From positions 16,391 through 25,855 of the forward strand of contig JAGTWP010000016.1 of NCBI GenBank assembly GCA_018260755.1: a stretch of DNA of 9,465 bases, written 5' to 3'. Origin of the DNA: Candidatus Altarchaeum sp. Lineage in GTDB: Archaea; Altiarchaeota; Altiarchaeia; Altiarchaeales; Altiarchaeaceae. A program made the translations under genes and the position numbers. The notes under the pieces are model-generated. The model was given only the letters and a program-made list of their open reading frames with translations. It did not search any database and had not been told where the DNA came from. Below, in pieces: positions 1 to 9,181 of the stretch (the stretch's first letter is position 1; every line of letters begins with the position of its first letter).

Positions 1-127
1 ATCTTATCTTATATCTTATCTTATATCTTATCTTATATCTTATCTTATATCTTATCTTATATTTTATCTTATATCTTATCTTACATCTTATATCTTATCT
101 TATATTTTATCTTATATCTTATCTTAT
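1..127. repeat. 12-bp tandem repeat array overlapping the lysA 3' end
   Basis: The plus strand is built from the unit atcttatcttat. Five perfect copies occupy 1-60. They are followed by a variant with attttat (61-72), a copy ending in c (73-84), a 7-bp partial copy (85-91), a perfect copy (92-103), another attttat variant (104-115) and a final copy (116-127). The 24-bp blocks at 61-84 and 104-127 differ by one base, so the array also shows a larger 43-bp-period duplication. The array starts at the window edge, so its true length is unknown. Read in the lysA direction the unit is ATAAGATAAGAT; it supplies the last two lysA codons and the TAA stop. It has no T-run on the lysA strand, so it is not an obvious archaeal terminator. 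Confidence 0.95.
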
Positions 128-1462: not shown

Positions 1463-4207
1463 TCACTGTGAAAGCCCCTCTAAAATTTCAACAACATCAA
1501 ATATATCTATTGCTTCATCATTATTTATGTTTGCCCTTGCAGGAATAGGTGAAGAAGTAACGGTGTGTTCAATTATTTTAAACGCGTCTTCTAAATCCAG
1601 CATGTTATTTTTATTTGCATCTCCCCATACAAAATTTAATCCAACCGCTCCGGTTCCATTACTTAAGACCTTATAATAGGTAATATTACCAAATGTTACA
1701 GTATCGCTTTCATTCATAATCCTCCAGTTTCCATCACAGTCATTCTCAATCATATTGTTTATGTCGCTCAGATTTGTCGCGTTGTCATTTACACAAACAA
1801 TACCCTTATCATTTTTTACCGGAAGATATAAAATTTTTTCACCGATTTTGTTTGTTTCATTCGCATCCAAATGAAGAATTGTATAACTTAAATTTTGCTC
1901 ACCTACTTCTCCTGATTTTGCAATAACATTTCCAAAATTTGGACTTTTGTAAGTGAAATTTATATTGACCTCACCAAGTGGAATTGTCTTATTTCCTATT
2001 CTTTCCACTATTTTGGCTATTTTAATGCCGTTGAAACTTGAATTTGCAGGTTTTTCTGTTACATTCCCGCTTACATTTTCAATTACATTTACGGTTAAAT
2101 TTTCCGGAATATTGGTTATATTGACATAGCATCTTGCTTTTGCTCCTATGAGTGCTCCTACTTTTGACCCAATCATTGACGGAACGCTCGGCGGAATTAT
2201 ACTCATATTTTTCTTATTGACACTATAAGAAATTACTCTTTCAATCTTGTTTTGCCTTATTTTGTTTTGTAAATCGCTATAAATTTTTAGGGAGTAGTTC
2301 TCAAAGAAAGAGGTATTATCTTGAATTTCAATACATTCTTCTGTAAATATATGAACACTATTATCAAAAGTATAGTTCGTTTGATTTATTATTAATTTAT
2401 ACGAAGTATACCCCTCTTTAAACATAAAAATTTTATAAGTGTGTCCATTTGAAGGTATAAATTCGACAATTCCGTTTTCGTTTGTAAATAAAACAACACT
2501 TTTGTTCGTATTAGTATCAATTATTACAACTTTTGCGTTTTCTAATGAAAGATTGTTAATATCGGCGACATTTAAAGTTATTAAATTTATAGATATATTC
2601 TCATCTGAGATAATTGAATTTTTACTTACATTAAGGATTACCTCATTTGAATAGATGCTTTTTAATGTGTATGTCCCTTCATCCAGAACAATTTCAAAAA
2701 ATCCATTTTCATCAGAACTTAAATTTAAAATTTCTCCGTTGTATTTAGTTAGAGTTAAATTTATATTTGGCAATAATCTTCCGGAATGTTCGGTTTTTCC
2801 GTAAATAATACTTTGATTTTCCTTTATTACAACAAATGCATTTGAAAGGACATTGTTTAATTCGGTTGATTCATTAATTTCAGATGTAGGAAATATTGAT
2901 GCTGTTACAAAATAGATTCCCGAAGGTAATGAAAAATTAAAGGATAAAATGGACTTTGGTGTGAGGTTTGTAGCAATTGTTTGATTTTGAACGATATATT
3001 CATTAATTATTATTGAAACCATTGCAGAACCATTATATAAATTTTGGAATAAATTTTCAGAGGTAACATTTATCGTTAAATTTCCATCCGATATTAAAGG
3101 AACATGAATTTCTGTTATTGCCAAATCTGGCAAAGTGCAATTGCCTATGTTTGTATAATTTGTAAAGTTAACATTAATATTATTTGAGCATATTATATTA
3201 TTACTCAAATCAGGAGAATTATTTGAAGTGATTTCATATCCGTAAATCCCTATATTATTTTTTATAATTTCATTTGCTTCAATTGATATGTTTTTTTCCC
3301 TTCCGATACCATTTCTTATTCCTATTTCATTATATCTTATTAAATTTTTATATATGCTATTATTAATTTCATTGTTAGTATTTCCTATTCCTCTATTGTT
3401 ATTCTGAATCATATTACAATAAATTGTTGTGCTGTTTGACTCAATCCAAATTCCGTTCGAGAAATTTTCAATTATACAATTTTCAATAAGTGCGTTATTT
3501 CCTTGTATATTTATTCCTATGCTATTTATATTCCCTGAAATTTTATGCCACCTGCAGTCCAAAACAGTATTATCTGCGGATATGTTTATACAGGTATTTT
3601 CGCTTGCGTTTATATCCTGCGTTAATATGTATGTTTTATCCCCTTTGTTTAATGTCGTGCAATTTGAAATTTCCGAAACATTTTGCACAGAATATTTTGA
3701 ACCTACTTTGGCACCCACTTTTGCACTAACAATCCCTCCTATTTTACATCCGACCGCAAATTCACAATGGTGATTTTTTGCTGCATATCCTGCATTACAA
3801 TTTAAATTTTTACAATATCCGTTATAGCAATTCTGATTGTTAGAACAGTTTTCATTCGCATTGCAGGAATTTGGAATTTGACACGCAGAGGATAAATTCA
3901 TGGTTAAATTTTCCACTTCGCCGTAGTCATTAATAGAAACACTAAAATGGTAAGAGTTATTACAATATGTAAAATTTATTGAAAAATTTCCTATTCCCAA
4001 TTCACAATATCCGTGAGCATTTGTCGTGCAATTATATAAATTGGTAGAATTGAATATATTAATTGTTAAATTTGTCACCTGGTCTTCATAAATATCTAAA
4101 ACACTGACACCTGTTGCCAAATGGAAATCAGCATTGACATCCACACTTAAAATTAAAAAAACAATAACTAATGCCAAAGCTCCAATCCCAAAAAATTTTG
4201 TTTTCAT
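1463..4207 (-). CDS. Secreted multidomain glycoprotein: Cys-rich, beta-helix, CARDB-like, dockerin
   Basis: A 914-aa exported protein; residues count from the Met at 4207. Visible in order: signal peptide (1-26, cut near VNA); beta-rich region (27-108); Cys-rich EGF-like module with eight cysteines (C109, 115, 121, 127, 132, 137, 148, 154); a G-x-x-x-G tetrapeptide run (153-171); NosD-like right-handed beta-helix (about 181-357); CARDB-like Ig fold starting PDLAITEI (about 360-461); two carboxypeptidase-regulatory-like sandwiches (about 466-541 and 543-619); a second Gly run (679-691); an unassigned beta region; and a C-terminal dockerin (862-912). By hand I count about 54 N-x-S/T sequons, so it is probably heavily glycosylated. 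There is no C-terminal membrane segment, so retention at the surface likely depends on docking. No catalytic motif is evident. An ATG at 4234 would add nine residues before the signal peptide; I prefer 4207 because MKTKFF is a normal n-region. It lies 44 bp after the preceding gene. Confidence 0.85.
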   Translation of the reverse strand: MKTKFFGIGALALVIVFLILSVDVNADFHLATGVSVLDIYEDQVTNLTINIFNSTNLYNCTTNAHGYCELGIGNFSINFTYCNNSYHFSVSINDYGEVENLTMNLSSACQIPNSCNANENCSNNQNCYNGYCKNLNCNAGYAAKNHHCEFAVGCKIGGIVSAKVGAKVGSKYSVQNVSEISNCTTLNKGDKTYILTQDINASENTCINISADNTVLDCRWHKISGNINSIGINIQGNNALIENCIIENFSNGIWIESNSTTIYCNMIQNNNRGIGNTNNEINNSIYKNLIRYNEIGIRNGIGREKNISIEANEIIKNNIGIYGYEITSNNSPDLSNNIICSNNINVNFTNYTNIGNCTLPDLAITEIHVPLISDGNLTINVTSENLFQNLYNGSAMVSIIINEYIVQNQTIATNLTPKSILSFNFSLPSGIYFVTASIFPTSEINESTELNNVLSNAFVVIKENQSIIYGKTEHSGRLLPNINLTLTKYNGEILNLSSDENGFFEIVLDEGTYTLKSIYSNEVILNVSKNSIISDENISINLITLNVADINNLSLENAKVVIIDTNTNKSVVLFTNENGIVEFIPSNGHTYKIFMFKEGYTSYKLIINQTNYTFDNSVHIFTEECIEIQDNTSFFENYSLKIYSDLQNKIRQNKIERVISYSVNKKNMSIIPPSVPSMIGSKVGALIGAKARCYVNITNIPENLTVNVIENVSGNVTEKPANSSFNGIKIAKIVERIGNKTIPLGEVNINFTYKSPNFGNVIAKSGEVGEQNLSYTILHLDANETNKIGEKILYLPVKNDKGIVCVNDNATNLSDINNMIENDCDGNWRIMNESDTVTFGNITYYKVLSNGTGAVGLNFVWGDANKNNMLDLEDAFKIIEHTVTSSPIPARANINNDEAIDIFDVVEILEGLSQ
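1469..1624 (-). other. Dockerin type I-like domain (two Ca-binding loops)
   Basis: The C-terminus of the large surface protein holds two EF-hand-like dockerin loops. The first is GDANKNNMLDLED, with candidate Ca ligands D863, N865, N867, D871 and D874. The second is NINNDEAIDIFD, with N893, N895, D897, D901 and D904 in the same 1-3-5-9-12 spacing. Each is followed by a short hydrophobic helix (AFKIIEH and VVEILEG). Dockerins bind cohesin domains; none is recognisable in the neighbouring proteins, so the partner is either elsewhere or too divergent to see. Confidence 0.8.
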
Positions 4208-4251
4208 ATTTAAAATAATATCATCTAATATCATCTGTTTTTATTAAAATT

Positions 4252-5643
4252 TTAATGTGTACTTTTATGCTCTTCTTTTTTCTTTCCCGTAATTGCATTT
4301 ATTATTTTATCCGTGTATCCGGTTCCAAAAAGCACCAAAATTGAACCTATTATCAACCCGATAATTAATGTTAAAGTAACGGGAAATGGATACTCCTTCC
4401 CCTGAGGATATTCCTTGAGTGGTGCACCCATATCAACACTATCTGTTAATTTATCATATACGTATCCAAGGTCTGCATTAGGGTCATATACATATATTGT
4501 TGGCAATCTGTAGATATATTTTCCTGCCGGCTTGTGATAAATTTTAAATTTACCCTCATTGTCTGTTATTGTCATAATATGTATAACATTTGCTTCAATT
4601 CCGACAAGATAAACACCAACTTCGGCACCTTTTACGGGATTTGCATCTTTATCATAAACAGTTCCTTCCACAATAACTGCAGTGGTAAAGGTTTTAGTTG
4701 TTTCTGTTGCATTTTCTATTACTTTTTTTGTATGTTTATCATTAAGATTAAGTGCAGAACTGTTTGAAAGTAAAAACAACTTCCAGTTATATTCCAAGGT
4801 AAAATTTCTAACTACTATTGATTTTTCAACATAAGAAATACTCTCATTTATATTCTTTAATCCGATAAATTTATAAATAATTCCGTAATCTTTATCTTTG
4901 GAAATGACTTTGATGGGCTCTAATATCCTGTCACTCTTGCTGCAAGGATGTGGCAAGGCATTGCAAGGGTAAGGATATAAATTTATTTTGCCATTTTCTT
5001 CTTTTAAAATGTATTTATATGTTTCGCCACCTATAATTTTTAAAGTCACATCATTTTCTTTTTTATTAAGTTTAAGCGAGTTTTCTCCATCAGTTATATT
5101 TATTTCGTTATCGCTTTTTTTGATTTTTGCATCTTCGGCCAAATCTATTTTTAACTCATCCTTTAAGAATTTCATGAATTCTGCATTATTTTCAGAAATA
5201 TCATCCCAGCTAAACGGATATGGATTTTGAGGCATACACAAATTAGATATATCTTCGCGATAATAATGTGCATCTGTTGTAATTAGCAATGTGTGTATTC
5301 CAGGCCTATTTAGATAAATTTCTGAAACCAAAGTATCTTTTAAATTTAATTTTACATGGTCAAAATATGCCTCATTATCTTTTTGTGTAAGGTTTATTAC
5401 AAACATTTGCTGAACAAACGGCTTATCAATATAGATGTATATAGGAACTACCTGCTTGCTTGCCGAAATGTCAAATTCTACAAAATTATTTTCCATCTCA
5501 TCATGAATAAAATAGGTATGCTCAACATAATTTGATAACTCCGGACATTTTTCTTCATCTGCATATACTAAACCAAGCGTGCCAAAAAACAATATTAATA
5601 TTATTCCTGCAAATATTAATATATTTTTTCCTTTTTTTTCCAT
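4252..5643 (-). CDS. Exported protein with carboxypeptidase-regulatory-like domain and C-terminal membrane anchor
   Basis: A 463-aa single-pass surface protein of unknown function. It has a signal peptide (1-28; MEKKGKN, hydrophobic core, VYA cut site), a long ectodomain with four cysteines (C33, C136, C227, C234), and a carboxypeptidase-regulatory-like beta-sandwich (about 324-386, VEGTVYDKDANPVKGAEV then TDNEGKFKI). A transmembrane helix (about 420-442) and a short Lys-rich cytoplasmic tail (GKKKEEHKSTH) follow. About six N-glycosylation sequons lie in the ectodomain. An upstream ATG at 5709 would add 22 residues and overlap the preceding gene by 16 bp. I chose 5643 because the signal peptide begins there. 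The start context AAATTTTTTAAAATGG also nearly matches that of the beta-propeller gene. With this start the gap to the preceding gene is 50 bp. No enzyme motif was found; residues about 29-323 match nothing I recognise. Confidence 0.85.
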   Translation of the reverse strand: MEKKGKNILIFAGIILILFFGTLGLVYADEEKCPELSNYVEHTYFIHDEMENNFVEFDISASKQVVPIYIYIDKPFVQQMFVINLTQKDNEAYFDHVKLNLKDTLVSEIYLNRPGIHTLLITTDAHYYREDISNLCMPQNPYPFSWDDISENNAEFMKFLKDELKIDLAEDAKIKKSDNEINITDGENSLKLNKKENDVTLKIIGGETYKYILKEENGKINLYPYPCNALPHPCSKSDRILEPIKVISKDKDYGIIYKFIGLKNINESISYVEKSIVVRNFTLEYNWKLFLLSNSSALNLNDKHTKKVIENATETTKTFTTAVIVEGTVYDKDANPVKGAEVGVYLVGIEANVIHIMTITDNEGKFKIYHKPAGKYIYRLPTIYVYDPNADLGYVYDKLTDSVDMGAPLKEYPQGKEYPFPVTLTLIIGLIIGSILVLFGTGYTDKIINAITGKKKEEHKSTH

Positions 5644-5693
5644 TTTAAAAAATTTGTAATTTAATTGATTAAAATTTATTTTTAAATTTTTAC

Positions 5694-7106
5694 TCAACCT
5701 AATAACCATTTATCTTTAGCCCATGCAATCCAGTTATCATCTTTGTATTCCCTGTCAAGTATAACTTCGTACTTATTAACATAATTTTTTGAGTTTATGT
5801 CTACATCTTCGCAATTTGTACATCCTGGTACATGCGCGCTTCCTACCGCTATGTATACGATTCCATCATCTTTGCTTAATTCAATTGTATTCTCATCTAT
5901 CATTTTTCCAACACCAACAAAACCTATTGTATTTTTTAAATCAGAGTATATATTGCCTGTTCTAAATCCATCATCAAGTGTTTCTCCTTTTGTCATCCAG
6001 AAATTTGTATTATTAATACACATTCCTTTTTCTGCAACCTCTTTACCTTTCATTAAATTTATGCAAATTTTGTTCAATGAAGGATTGGGCATATATACAT
6101 AAATAGTATATTCTCCAAGCTTACTTAAATCAACCTCAATGAACTCCACCAACCCTTCATGAATTGATGGTGCTGATGCTCCACTACCACTTCCTCCTTC
6201 CTCACCACTACTTGGTTTTGGTCTTACATCAGTAAATTTCTTTGCCAATCCATTGCCAAATTCAAAAAACGATTTGCTTTTTCCTATTCTTTGATTATAT
6301 ATATTTAAAGGAGAAATTATAACATCACTGAACCTGTCTCCTGATTCTAGCCAGGTATATTTTGTCCATATTTTAATAACTCCATCATCTTTCGTTAGTG
6401 TATTTTTAACTTCATCTAATCCGATACTATTCCATAATTCTTCATGATATCCTTCAGGTCTTGTCCACCCCATAAATAAACTACAATTTAAAATTAAATC
6501 TCCTTCTTCCACAAGTTTGCCCCCATACATTAGGTCAATGTGAACTATGCTTCCCTTATCTTTATCCTCTTTTAACAAAATATAATAATCTCCCAAATCC
6601 TTCAAATCCACGGTATCTTTTTCCGCTTCGTTTTGTGACTTGTATTTCATTTTTGCTGACTCTGGTTCGCTCGGAGAAGAAGTCGGACGCAAGCCATCGA
6701 ATTTTCCTTTCATTATATCCAATATGTGCTGATGGACACCGAGAGCATTCTTGTTTTTAAAATATATATCAAATTTTGCATTTTTCTTCTCAACCTCATA
6801 ATCCCCTTCATATCCTACAAAGTCCTCTTTATTAATACTCTTTGTTGCTATAACATGATACTTTCCTTCTTCCATTGATTTAAGTATATTGTTAGGAATA
6901 GCATAATGTCCTTGTTCATCTGTAATTAGTTTAAATGTCTCTTCATAATTTGTAAATGTTACGGTAGCGTGTGGAATTGGCTCGCCATTGTAATCAATAA
7001 CATTTCCTTCCAAATTCCATGCAGTTAACACAAATACAGCATACCCTAAAAGCAAGGAAAGTCCCAATATTACTATCAGTCCATATAAAAGAGCTTTTGT
7101 ATTCAT
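5694..7106 (-). CDS. Membrane-anchored protein with Ig-like domain and duplicated unknown domain
   Basis: A 470-aa protein with an N-terminal signal anchor (about 6-29, ALLYGLIVILGLSLLLGYAV) and the rest probably outside the cell. Residues 31-118 form a carboxypeptidase-regulatory-like sandwich (LEGNVIDYNGEPIPHATV, then TDEQGHYAIP). After a Ser/Pro linker comes a domain at about 164-262. A Gly/Ser-rich linker (299-313) then separates it from a second, related domain at 323-425. Shared landmarks are VDLxxLGxY, a (Y/K)GK-V-E-G segment, an Asn followed by aromatic residues, and KDDG(V/I)-(K/Y)I. I do not recognise this repeated domain. A CTNC pair (429-432) and a Trp-rich tail close the protein. 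It starts 68 bp behind the beta-propeller gene, with no Shine-Dalgarno before ATG. The weak A/T tract upstream could be an internal promoter, but co-transcription with its neighbours is as likely. Confidence 0.85.
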   Translation of the reverse strand: MNTKALLYGLIVILGLSLLLGYAVFVLTAWNLEGNVIDYNGEPIPHATVTFTNYEETFKLITDEQGHYAIPNNILKSMEEGKYHVIATKSINKEDFVGYEGDYEVEKKNAKFDIYFKNKNALGVHQHILDIMKGKFDGLRPTSSPSEPESAKMKYKSQNEAEKDTVDLKDLGDYYILLKEDKDKGSIVHIDLMYGGKLVEEGDLILNCSLFMGWTRPEGYHEELWNSIGLDEVKNTLTKDDGVIKIWTKYTWLESGDRFSDVIISPLNIYNQRIGKSKSFFEFGNGLAKKFTDVRPKPSSGEEGGSGSGASAPSIHEGLVEFIEVDLSKLGEYTIYVYMPNPSLNKICINLMKGKEVAEKGMCINNTNFWMTKGETLDDGFRTGNIYSDLKNTIGFVGVGKMIDENTIELSKDDGIVYIAVGSAHVPGCTNCEDVDINSKNYVNKYEVILDREYKDDNWIAWAKDKWLLG

Positions 7107-7161
7107 CTTTTTGGATTTATTTTTATTTATTTTTGTTTAATTCTTTTTTAAATTTGTGTTA

Positions 7162-7176
7162 AATAACCCTGTTATT
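7162..7176. repeat. Short inverted repeat at the end of the beta-propeller gene
   Basis: The sequence aataac-cct-gttatt is a perfect 6-bp stem with a 3-nt loop that overlaps the TAA stop of the upstream gene. It is AT-rich and weak, and no T-run follows on the transcribed strand, so a terminator role is doubtful. Confidence 0.4.
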
Positions 7177-9181
7177 ATTCTTTCTTTACCTTTGGCCTTC
7201 TTATGAATAAAATGATTAACACAATTATTCCCACAATAATTGCAATAACGCAGACATCTTGTGCTTTTGAAATTACATCGTAGTCCTTTGCTTCCTTTGT
7301 TGCCTCGGATAAGGTCTTTATGGTCTTTTCATAGTCATTTTCACTTTCTGCTATGTGTGCCTCTTGAATTTTGTCTTCTATGTCTCTGACATCTGCCCCA
7401 AATATTAACCATGGAGTAATTGCTTCTTTCTTCGCTTTCTCAGCATTATCAAATAATTCTTTCGTTCTTTCTTTTGTTAAACCCTCAAGTTCTTTAACAT
7501 CTTCCAAAAGTGTGAATGCATTAACATAATCCTTTTCCGAATTTATTTTTTCATCAAGTGTGGTAATGTTTCCTGTTGGCTCTGCAAATTTGTCTAATGC
7601 CGACTTTCTCAGTTCAACGTCTTTTAATAGAACTAATACATTATCCCTTACATACTGCTCGGTTTCTGTTCTGACTTCTTTAAAGTCACTTATAGCACTT
7701 TTATAATTACCAGTAAGCATTTCTTCCATTGCATTATCATATCTCAATTTTATTCCTGTTGTAAGTATCATACCTTTTTCACTTGCCATTTCCAATAAAT
7801 TATCTGTTTGGCTTTTCTCTTCCGATACATAAGAATTTCCTATCGTGATTTCTTTTGTTTTCAAATTCTTTGCTATCTCATAGACCTTTTCATAATTGCC
7901 TTCATTATATTCTTTTTTCATTTCTTTCAATAAATCTACTATTCCCTTCTTTTCTGCATCTGCTGCACCTATACTTGTAATAGCATTTAATATTTTTTCT
8001 CCTTTTGCAATTGATTCGTTTGCTGAAATTCCAACAAAATTTTTAAACGCTATTGCGTTATCCGAAAATGAAGCAATCATTATCTCGTCTTTTGCTAGAT
8101 AAAATTTCACCTTGTTATTTATATCATCCACAGTAGTTTTCTTTATTGAGGATATTTCTCCGTCAATTACTTCTGCAACAATTGTATCCGGATCCTTAAC
8201 ATCCGTTAATATTACTGCATGATTTTTATTTCCGCTTATGGAAACAATGTGTTCGTTGGGTTTCATTGCATACTCATAGATAATGGATTTGTTATAGCTT
8301 ATTACTCTTAATGTTGAAGGTGCAACATAAGCAATTGCTTTATTTAATCCTGCAATTCCAACAACTGCAGAATCATTTATTAATAAATTTAAGCTATTTG
8401 AATTTTCGCTATAAATATAAATTCCATCCGAACTCGCTATCGCAATTTTATCTGTTCCCGTAACACTTTTAACATTTATATTTTTTGAAAAAATATTTGT
8501 GCCTTCCATTGAAAATACAAAAAATCCATCGTCAGCTCCCACAAATACATCATTATTTAAAATTTTTACATTCTTGCATCCTTTCACTTCTTTATTCCAT
8601 TTGACATTTCCCTGCGAATCCATTATATATACATTATTTCCCGCACATGTTGCTACATTTCCCCCATTAATATCACAGGCTCCAATTTTTCCGCCTAAAT
8701 TTTTTCCCTTAACTCGGGTAGAACCGTCAAATAATGCAAAATCATAATTGCTTGTTCCGTAAGCAAATAAATTTCCGTCTGCACATATTGCAGTTGGATT
8801 TCCAGTAAGAGAAATCACATTTTTATATTTGATTACAGGGGTAACCTCCTTATCATAAATAAATTTGTTGTCCATTAGATTTTTATCCTGCAGGTCAATA
8901 ACATATAAACTAATACTTCCGGATTCTGCGTCCTTTGTAGAAACAAATACAAAATTTTTAGATGAAGAAACCATAATCACATTGCTCAACTTTACACAAT
9001 TTGAATGTTCCGGCGTCGTGTTGCTTTTTGCATTATAACTACAGAGTGTATCCGTTTTCCACTCAGTTAAACTATTTTCACTAAAAACATTTGTTGAAAA
9101 CATCAAACCAATTACAAAAGTTGACACTACAATTGCCGCTACAATCCCAAAAATACCGAATAAATTTTTACCTGAGGCCAT
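7175..9181 (-). CDS. Beta-propeller and helical-repeat membrane protein
   Basis: A 668-aa protein anchored at both ends. An N-terminal hydrophobic segment (about 8-28) lacks an obvious signal peptidase site, and a C-terminal transmembrane helix (642-660) ends in the basic tail RRPKVKKE, placing both termini inside and the middle outside. Residues about 65-385 look like a PQQ/WD-type beta-propeller, with recurring blades such as GNNVYIMDSQGNVKW (181-195), NNDVFVGADDGFFVFS and DKIAIASSDGIYIYSE. Residues 386-640 are mostly helical and charged, with four related motifs: EGNYEKVYEIAKNLK (427-441), TGNYKSAISDFKEVR (490-504), EKDYVNAFTLLEDVK (549-563) and ENDYEKTIKTLSEATK (614-629), resembling half-TPR units. 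No catalytic motif is seen. It probably serves as a binding or scaffolding protein in the envelope. It is the first gene of the cluster and follows a probable leaderless promoter. Confidence 0.85.
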   Translation of the reverse strand: MASGKNLFGIFGIVAAIVVSTFVIGLMFSTNVFSENSLTEWKTDTLCSYNAKSNTTPEHSNCVKLSNVIMVSSSKNFVFVSTKDAESGSISLYVIDLQDKNLMDNKFIYDKEVTPVIKYKNVISLTGNPTAICADGNLFAYGTSNYDFALFDGSTRVKGKNLGGKIGACDINGGNVATCAGNNVYIMDSQGNVKWNKEVKGCKNVKILNNDVFVGADDGFFVFSMEGTNIFSKNINVKSVTGTDKIAIASSDGIYIYSENSNSLNLLINDSAVVGIAGLNKAIAYVAPSTLRVISYNKSIIYEYAMKPNEHIVSISGNKNHAVILTDVKDPDTIVAEVIDGEISSIKKTTVDDINNKVKFYLAKDEIMIASFSDNAIAFKNFVGISANESIAKGEKILNAITSIGAADAEKKGIVDLLKEMKKEYNEGNYEKVYEIAKNLKTKEITIGNSYVSEEKSQTDNLLEMASEKGMILTTGIKLRYDNAMEEMLTGNYKSAISDFKEVRTETEQYVRDNVLVLLKDVELRKSALDKFAEPTGNITTLDEKINSEKDYVNAFTLLEDVKELEGLTKERTKELFDNAEKAKKEAITPWLIFGADVRDIEDKIQEAHIAESENDYEKTIKTLSEATKEAKDYDVISKAQDVCVIAIIVGIIVLIILFIRRPKVKKE

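Follow-up and report, generated by a model that had tools for sequence, protein, structure and literature searches.

Do four adjacent genes for exported proteins at the end of an Altarchaeum contig encode parts of one cell-surface structure, or is a different feature of this locus the more important one? The window, the whole stretch of DNA that was analysed, comprises the last 9,465 bases of contig C49 (positions 16391-25855 of 25855) from a genome of 1.32 Mb that is 85% complete (G000). It was compared with three genomes of the same genus (G001, G002 and G003), all of them, like G000, being incomplete MAGs. The block consists of the following genes, listed in order of transcription:

7175-9181, minus strand: P4, 668 aa; propeller-like, with hydrophobic segments at both ends
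5694-7106, minus strand: P3, 470 aa; N-anchored, with a CarboxypepD_reg-like domain and a duplicated unknown domain
4252-5709, minus strand: P2, 485 aa; exported, with N- and C-terminal hydrophobic segments and a CarboxypepD_reg-like domain; host of the element described below; probable start at 5643
1463-4234, minus strand: P1, 923 aa; secreted and sequon-rich, with CarboxypepD_reg domains and a dockerin-like tail

The initial annotation described four adjacent, co-directional genes for exported or membrane proteins, and the four minus-strand open reading frames (ORFs) bear this out. The gaps of 44-68 bp that it reported hold if internal methionine starts are used for P2 (at 5643) and P1 (at 4207), that between P4 and P3 being 68 bp; the orthologous P2 ORFs in G002 and G003 begin at the methionine equivalent to 5643. 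Its membrane topology is backed by hydropathy for all four proteins, with two TM-like segments in P4 (residues 1-19 and 642-660), one at the N terminus of P3, one at each terminus of P2 and a single, N-terminal one in P1, which also has 54 N-glycosylation sequons, compared with 21 in shuffled sequences (shuffle maximum 31). The duplicated domain of P3 is real, with 30% identity across 121 residues (E 5e-9). The remaining domain assignments stood only in part. CarboxypepD_reg had been assigned to three of the four proteins; P1 scores above the curated cut-off but P3 and P2 fall below it, P3 rising just above when neighbours in frame are summed, and because G000 contains 28 matches to this family its being shared among them is not specific. 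The P1 dockerin is visible by eye at the C terminus as the motif GDANKNNMLDLEDAF...ANINNDEAIDIFDVVEIL but is called by no Pfam or NCBIfam profile, and the propeller of P4 corresponds to a weak PQQ_3 match (E 0.006).

The downstream neighbour of the block is lysA, encoding diaminopimelate decarboxylase. Beyond it, in both G000 and G003, lies a further exported, repeat-rich protein with a dockerin-like tail (L006:14817-16298 and L169:1182-2951, respectively). Next to the end of lysA, at window positions 1-118 and upstream (L006 ~16138-16608), is a low-complexity repeat with masked bases, translated as LILYLILY or ISYLISYL.

A conserved neighbourhood in relatives had been set beforehand as the test of the idea that these genes belong together. 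The order P4-P3-P2 is kept in G000, G002 and G003, but P1 follows P2 in G000 and G003 only; in the latter the P2-P1 gap is 237 bp and an extra ORF precedes lysA. Other genes follow P4-P3-P2 in G002, and the gene downstream of P2 in G001 also occurs downstream of P2 in G002. Full-length relatives of P4 were found within the genus only, in G002 and G003 (76-77%), with weak propeller-like matches outside it, and the part of P2 outside the insert described below had no match beyond the genus among 101 genomes. This pattern fits a genus-specific set of exported Altarchaeum genes with a P4-P3-P2 core, to which P1 is loosely attached. That the four genes encode a cell-surface complex draws on the order kept in three genomes, on the export or membrane location of all four products and on the dockerin-like tail of P1, but the adjacency of P1 is not constant, its dockerin lacks a profile call and the complex was proposed from sequence alone; we regard it as rather doubtful. 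It does not compete with what follows, as an insert in P2 would simply be incidental to such a complex. As a genus-specific set the block looks fairly ordinary, and a mobile coding element within P2 looks to be its more important feature.

The initial annotation overlooked this element. The first clue to it was that residues ~159-247 of P2 gave many matches in each genome, in ORFs of unrelated length, whilst the rest of P2 gave one; exactly this stretch is missing from the orthologue in G003. The following features were delimited within the gene:

4975..5221, minus strand: protein-coding transposable element, 247 bp (1+3n), in frame in P2; residues 164-245 (YPFSWDD...KINLY); profile match 4.7e-33
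5208..5221, minus strand: left terminal inverted repeat, eroded; ATATCCGTTTAGCT against the consensus GTATTTGTTTAGCT, 11/14 by eye
4975..4988, minus strand: right terminal inverted repeat, eroded; reverse complement ATATAAATTTATTT against GTATATGTTTAGCT, 9/14 by eye
5222..5229, minus strand: left copy of the target-site duplication, CAAAATCC; diverged, with a 4/8 match to the right copy
4967..4974, minus strand: right copy of the target-site duplication, CCTTACCC; matches the empty site CCGTATCC (G003) or CCTTATCC (G002)

The site occupied in the window is empty in the G002 and G003 orthologues and filled in G001; the gene has a second insertion site as well, at which G001 and G002 carry a copy and G003 and the window do not. 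The copy in the window is an old one with eroded repeats.

Profile matches to the module numbered 17 in G000, 17 in G001, 10 in G002, 19 in G003 and 25 in G026. Three other Altiarchaeia genomes had one match each, and the remaining 21 scanned had none. Outside the Altiarchaeota, a scan of 84,980 species genomes found the module in ANME-1, ANME-2, Methanoperedens, Methanosarcina, a few unassigned archaea and one Anaerolineales MAG, where its hosts are once more unrelated proteins such as CDC48 and a UvrD-type helicase; viral contigs, phages and plasmids gave no match. The module, 85-90 residues long, occurs in frame within dozens of genes that are unrelated to one another and in some cases essential, with mostly cytoplasmic products. 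Its hosts include PyrG, CdhA, DNA ligase, LonB, RadC, PRPP synthetase, Cas3, CDC48, N6 DNA methylases, a UvrD-type helicase and transposases, and the host family could be recognised on both sides of the insert in PyrG, RadC, ATP DNA ligase, PRPP synthetase, CDC48, Cas3, CdhA and an IS1634 transposase. In LonB the copies lie near the N terminus, and each of the four genus genomes has two of them in the same position.

Several individual hosts are of note. An ATP-dependent DNA ligase of G000 (L172:244-3600, contig C67) contains five copies within one ORF of 1119 aa. Transposase ORFs containing the element were seen in G026 (L033, L038, L041 and L044), where the interrupted ORF is multi-copy and situated at contig ends, and in G002 (L043; IS1634 family). 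All four genus genomes have a conserved unknown protein with a truncated copy at its N terminus (a 475-aa ORF in L172, at G000:C67 ~7764-7961, and L192, L195 and L202), and this copy has possibly been domesticated. The RadC copy L171 (G002:C242) has stops or a frame break in the element region, through either decay or an assembly error.

Evidence that the module moved as DNA comes from its ends. Copies are bounded by the terminal inverted repeats GTATTTGTTTAGCT and GTATATGTTTAGCT, the left repeat being read as G|TAT TTG TTT AGC and the right one, as the reverse complement, as GTATATGTTTAGCT; codon choice is skewed at the element ends (TTG, z 16.7; AGC, 11.9; AAG, 11.0; ATA, 9.6). Across 58 independent sites, the flanking 8 bp matched at a mean of 4.62/8 positions, compared with 2.70 when shuffled (z 12; reached in 0/2000 shuffles). 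This signal was strong at 8 bp and at no other length, and it reappeared when Altiarchaeota (z 6.8) and the remaining genomes (z 9.1) were analysed apart. In PyrG, the empty site of G003 reads ATTAAACAAATCAATG, the filled one of G000 being ATTAAACAAAA-element-AAACAAATCAATG. In RadC of G003 an older copy is interrupted by a younger one whose repeats are perfect and whose duplication is 8/8; the older copy is the only one present in G000 and G001. A perfect 8/8 duplication also surrounds an intergenic copy in G000, between thiolase-like and gyrA-like genes; this copy is nearest to those of Methanoperedens, suggesting transfer between phyla, albeit with modest branch support. A TPR gene shows the nesting pattern too, with duplications of just 1-2/8, and recombination may have produced it; the clean example of nesting is RadC of G003.

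As read from the genome sequences, the empty sites and the nested insertion with its perfect duplication are a demonstration of transposition. The module might alternatively be an ordinary domain with a function in its hosts, spread by recombination and domain shuffling, for which one could cite the predicted fold of the peptide, the purifying selection upon it (both described below) and the shared position of the two LonB copies; yet such a domain would have to account for conserved terminal inverted repeats, 8-bp duplications at 58 independent sites, exact empty sites, a nested copy and an intergenic copy each with 8/8 duplications, and insertion into unrelated enzymes. We consider this alternative improbable, and as a mode of spread domain shuffling is already hard to hold, although individual old copies, for example the LonB pair, may have been domesticated. 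Very probably, then, the P2 module is a non-autonomous transposable element that is translated together with the protein it sits in and is likely to have been moved in trans by an IS66-type transposase.

How such an element could enter genes with little damage is suggested by its length. All 58 stop-free copies are of length 1 mod 3, 30 of the 58 being 262 bp, and as 1+3n plus the 8-bp duplication is divisible by three, the reading frame is kept. Copies were collected by peptide search, a bias that partly explains the intact frames and the 1 mod 3 lengths and makes intact frames by themselves weak evidence; it does not extend to the 8-bp duplication, the empty sites or the two-sided host homology. 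Among non-coding MITEs bearing these repeats, lengths of 0, 1 and 2 mod 3 all occur. Between copies of the coding element, the median dN/dS was 0.40 over 1673 pairs, several same-site orthologues gave values of 0.12-0.37, and the P2 element compared between G000 and G001 gave 0.17. As judged from these ratios, the peptide is shown to be under purifying selection.

AlphaFold2 predicted one helix and six strands for the peptide, with a pLDDT of 83.5. Pfam and NCBIfam families gave scattered weak matches, none common to more than five of 20 copies; no PDB sequence matched the peptide up to E 10, and Foldseek returned no match to the model at E 0.001. In structural comparison the best Z was 4.8, frataxin-like rows scoring ~4-4.5 over 65-70 residues. 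The peptide thus modelled probably folds into a small alpha+beta domain. When the interrupted PyrG was modelled with AlphaFold2, the insert was mostly confident and host residues 41-117 scored below 50, so that this model gives no support to an undisturbed host fold. The host may tolerate the insert because the latter folds independently.

The interrupted PyrG is the only full PyrG (CTP synthase) match in G000, a fact open to two readings. Together with the two-sided host homology and the dN/dS values, it leads us to infer that the element is translated with its host protein in the cell, and it hints that a host can stay functional with the insert in place. It could also be held to favour removal of the element after transcription or translation, by intein-like splicing, RNA excision or translational bypass, leaving mature hosts that lack the insert, since essential enzymes tolerate it, the lone CTP synthase detected in G000 among them. 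A stop-free frame in multiples of three and a dN/dS of ~0.4 nevertheless point to a translated peptide, the boundary residues vary, the Pfam and NCBIfam matches of the 20 copies include no intein (Hint) family, and at 85-90 residues the element is shorter than known inteins; hence we judge removal to be very unlikely.

With an element translated in place, the question becomes what moves it. ANME-1 contains a complete insertion sequence (IS) of 1543 bp (L308), with a DDE_Tnp_IS66 ORF, whose termini match the element repeat at 14/14 positions on the left and 13/14 on the right; its target duplication is 4/8. In G026, a repeated IS at contig ends has an ORF whose end abuts the repeat AGCTAAACAAACAC, with a right end of 13/14, and this ORF end is 50% identical to the C terminus of the ANME-1 IS66 transposase (E 3e-8). 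IS66 elements make 8-bp duplications. G000 itself has no IS66 match. Mobilisation in trans by IS66 transposases is, on the strength of these two elements, the best-supported mechanism, and one that we think reasonably probable. The IS630-like transposase of G001 is a most implausible mobiliser, for although it lies between two perfect copies of the GTATTTGTTTAGCT repeat (1381 bp) flanked by an 8/8 duplication, its IS has inverted repeats of its own, CTAGTGTCTTGACAACTTAATT, and is nested in a non-coding MITE, and its relatives in ANME-1, Methanoperedens and Methanosarcina lack GTATTTGTTTAGCT ends.

A 1928-bp candidate in G108 (L261) was likewise rejected, having a 2/8 duplication, no long transposase ORF and one end that is the end of a coding element. 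The nested IS630-like IS, located at L236:1440-2624, has CTAG-type ends. Non-coding MITEs of ~100-325 bp with the GTATTTGTTTAGCT repeat occur in G000 and G001 (L157-L162 and L164-L167), in ANME-1 genome G103 (L269 and L272) and in G026 (L286), several such MITEs having 7-8/8 duplications.

The proposed mechanism is that a transposase supplied in trans, the likeliest source being an IS66-family IS that shares the GTATTTGTTTAGCT repeat, would insert the ~262-bp element and in so doing duplicate 8 bp of the target. With a single open frame in the element, insertion in sense orientation and matching codon phase would add ~87-90 residues and leave the gene unbroken, and the small folded domain of the added peptide would be tolerated by the host protein. 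The element is presumably maintained selfishly.

A broader proposal, on which we are evenly divided, is that this transposon lineage is specialised for life inside genes: its sole cargo would be a self-folding peptide of frame-preserving length, selected so that intragenic insertion does little harm, and it would spread across archaeal phyla via IS66 transposases and act as a recurrent source of new domains in essential archaeal enzymes. Among its hosts, in uncultured archaea from deep groundwater and the methane cycle, are CTP synthase, CODH/ACS, DNA ligase and CDC48. This makes it possible to test whether selection can shape a transposon whose translated product protects the genes it enters, and whether such inserts seed new protein domains. 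The results also carry a warning, as unusual insertions in archaeal enzymes, phylogenetic markers and structural targets among them, may turn out to be transposons.

No earlier description of the element was found in open-licence PMC text, nor did the exact peptide and repeat strings occur there. Several known systems resemble it in part. Like inteins it lies inside essential genes and would be selfish and translated with its host, but it is much shorter and has DNA-transposon ends and 8-bp duplications. Palindromic amphipathic repeat coding elements, as described in PMC2996958, are intragenic tandem repeats of Mollicutes and other microbes, and are similarly spread horizontally and code for parts of proteins. 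With IS66-family IS and their derived MITEs it shares the inverted repeat (of two IS66-type elements) and the 8-bp duplications, and non-coding MITEs with the same repeat occur in some of the same genomes; unlike them, it both lacks a transposase and carries a conserved translated peptide of frame-preserving length.

The closest functional parallel is with the Rickettsia palindromic elements (RPE), reviewed in PMC2229807 and PMC10969869, where Wolbachia counterparts are cited; in-frame coding mobile elements have so far come mainly from these two genera, and a Rickettsia guanylate kinase carrying an RPE is still active (PMC2229807). Both kinds of element are small and non-autonomous, with terminal inverted repeats and an open frame, and are present in multiple copies, in frame in many unrelated conserved genes. 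RPE are 105-146 bp long and come from Rickettsia, whereas the archaeal element is mostly 262 bp with a sequence of its own; it works like an RPE but, differing in size and host range, is not classed as one. The target duplication of RPE is left open in the reviews, being entered as '?' in PMC2229807, whilst the archaeal element has a defined duplication of 8 bp, a probable IS66 partner and a predicted folded domain of ~87 residues. What is new is therefore an archaeal counterpart for which the target duplication is defined, a transposase family is probable and the product is predicted to fold.
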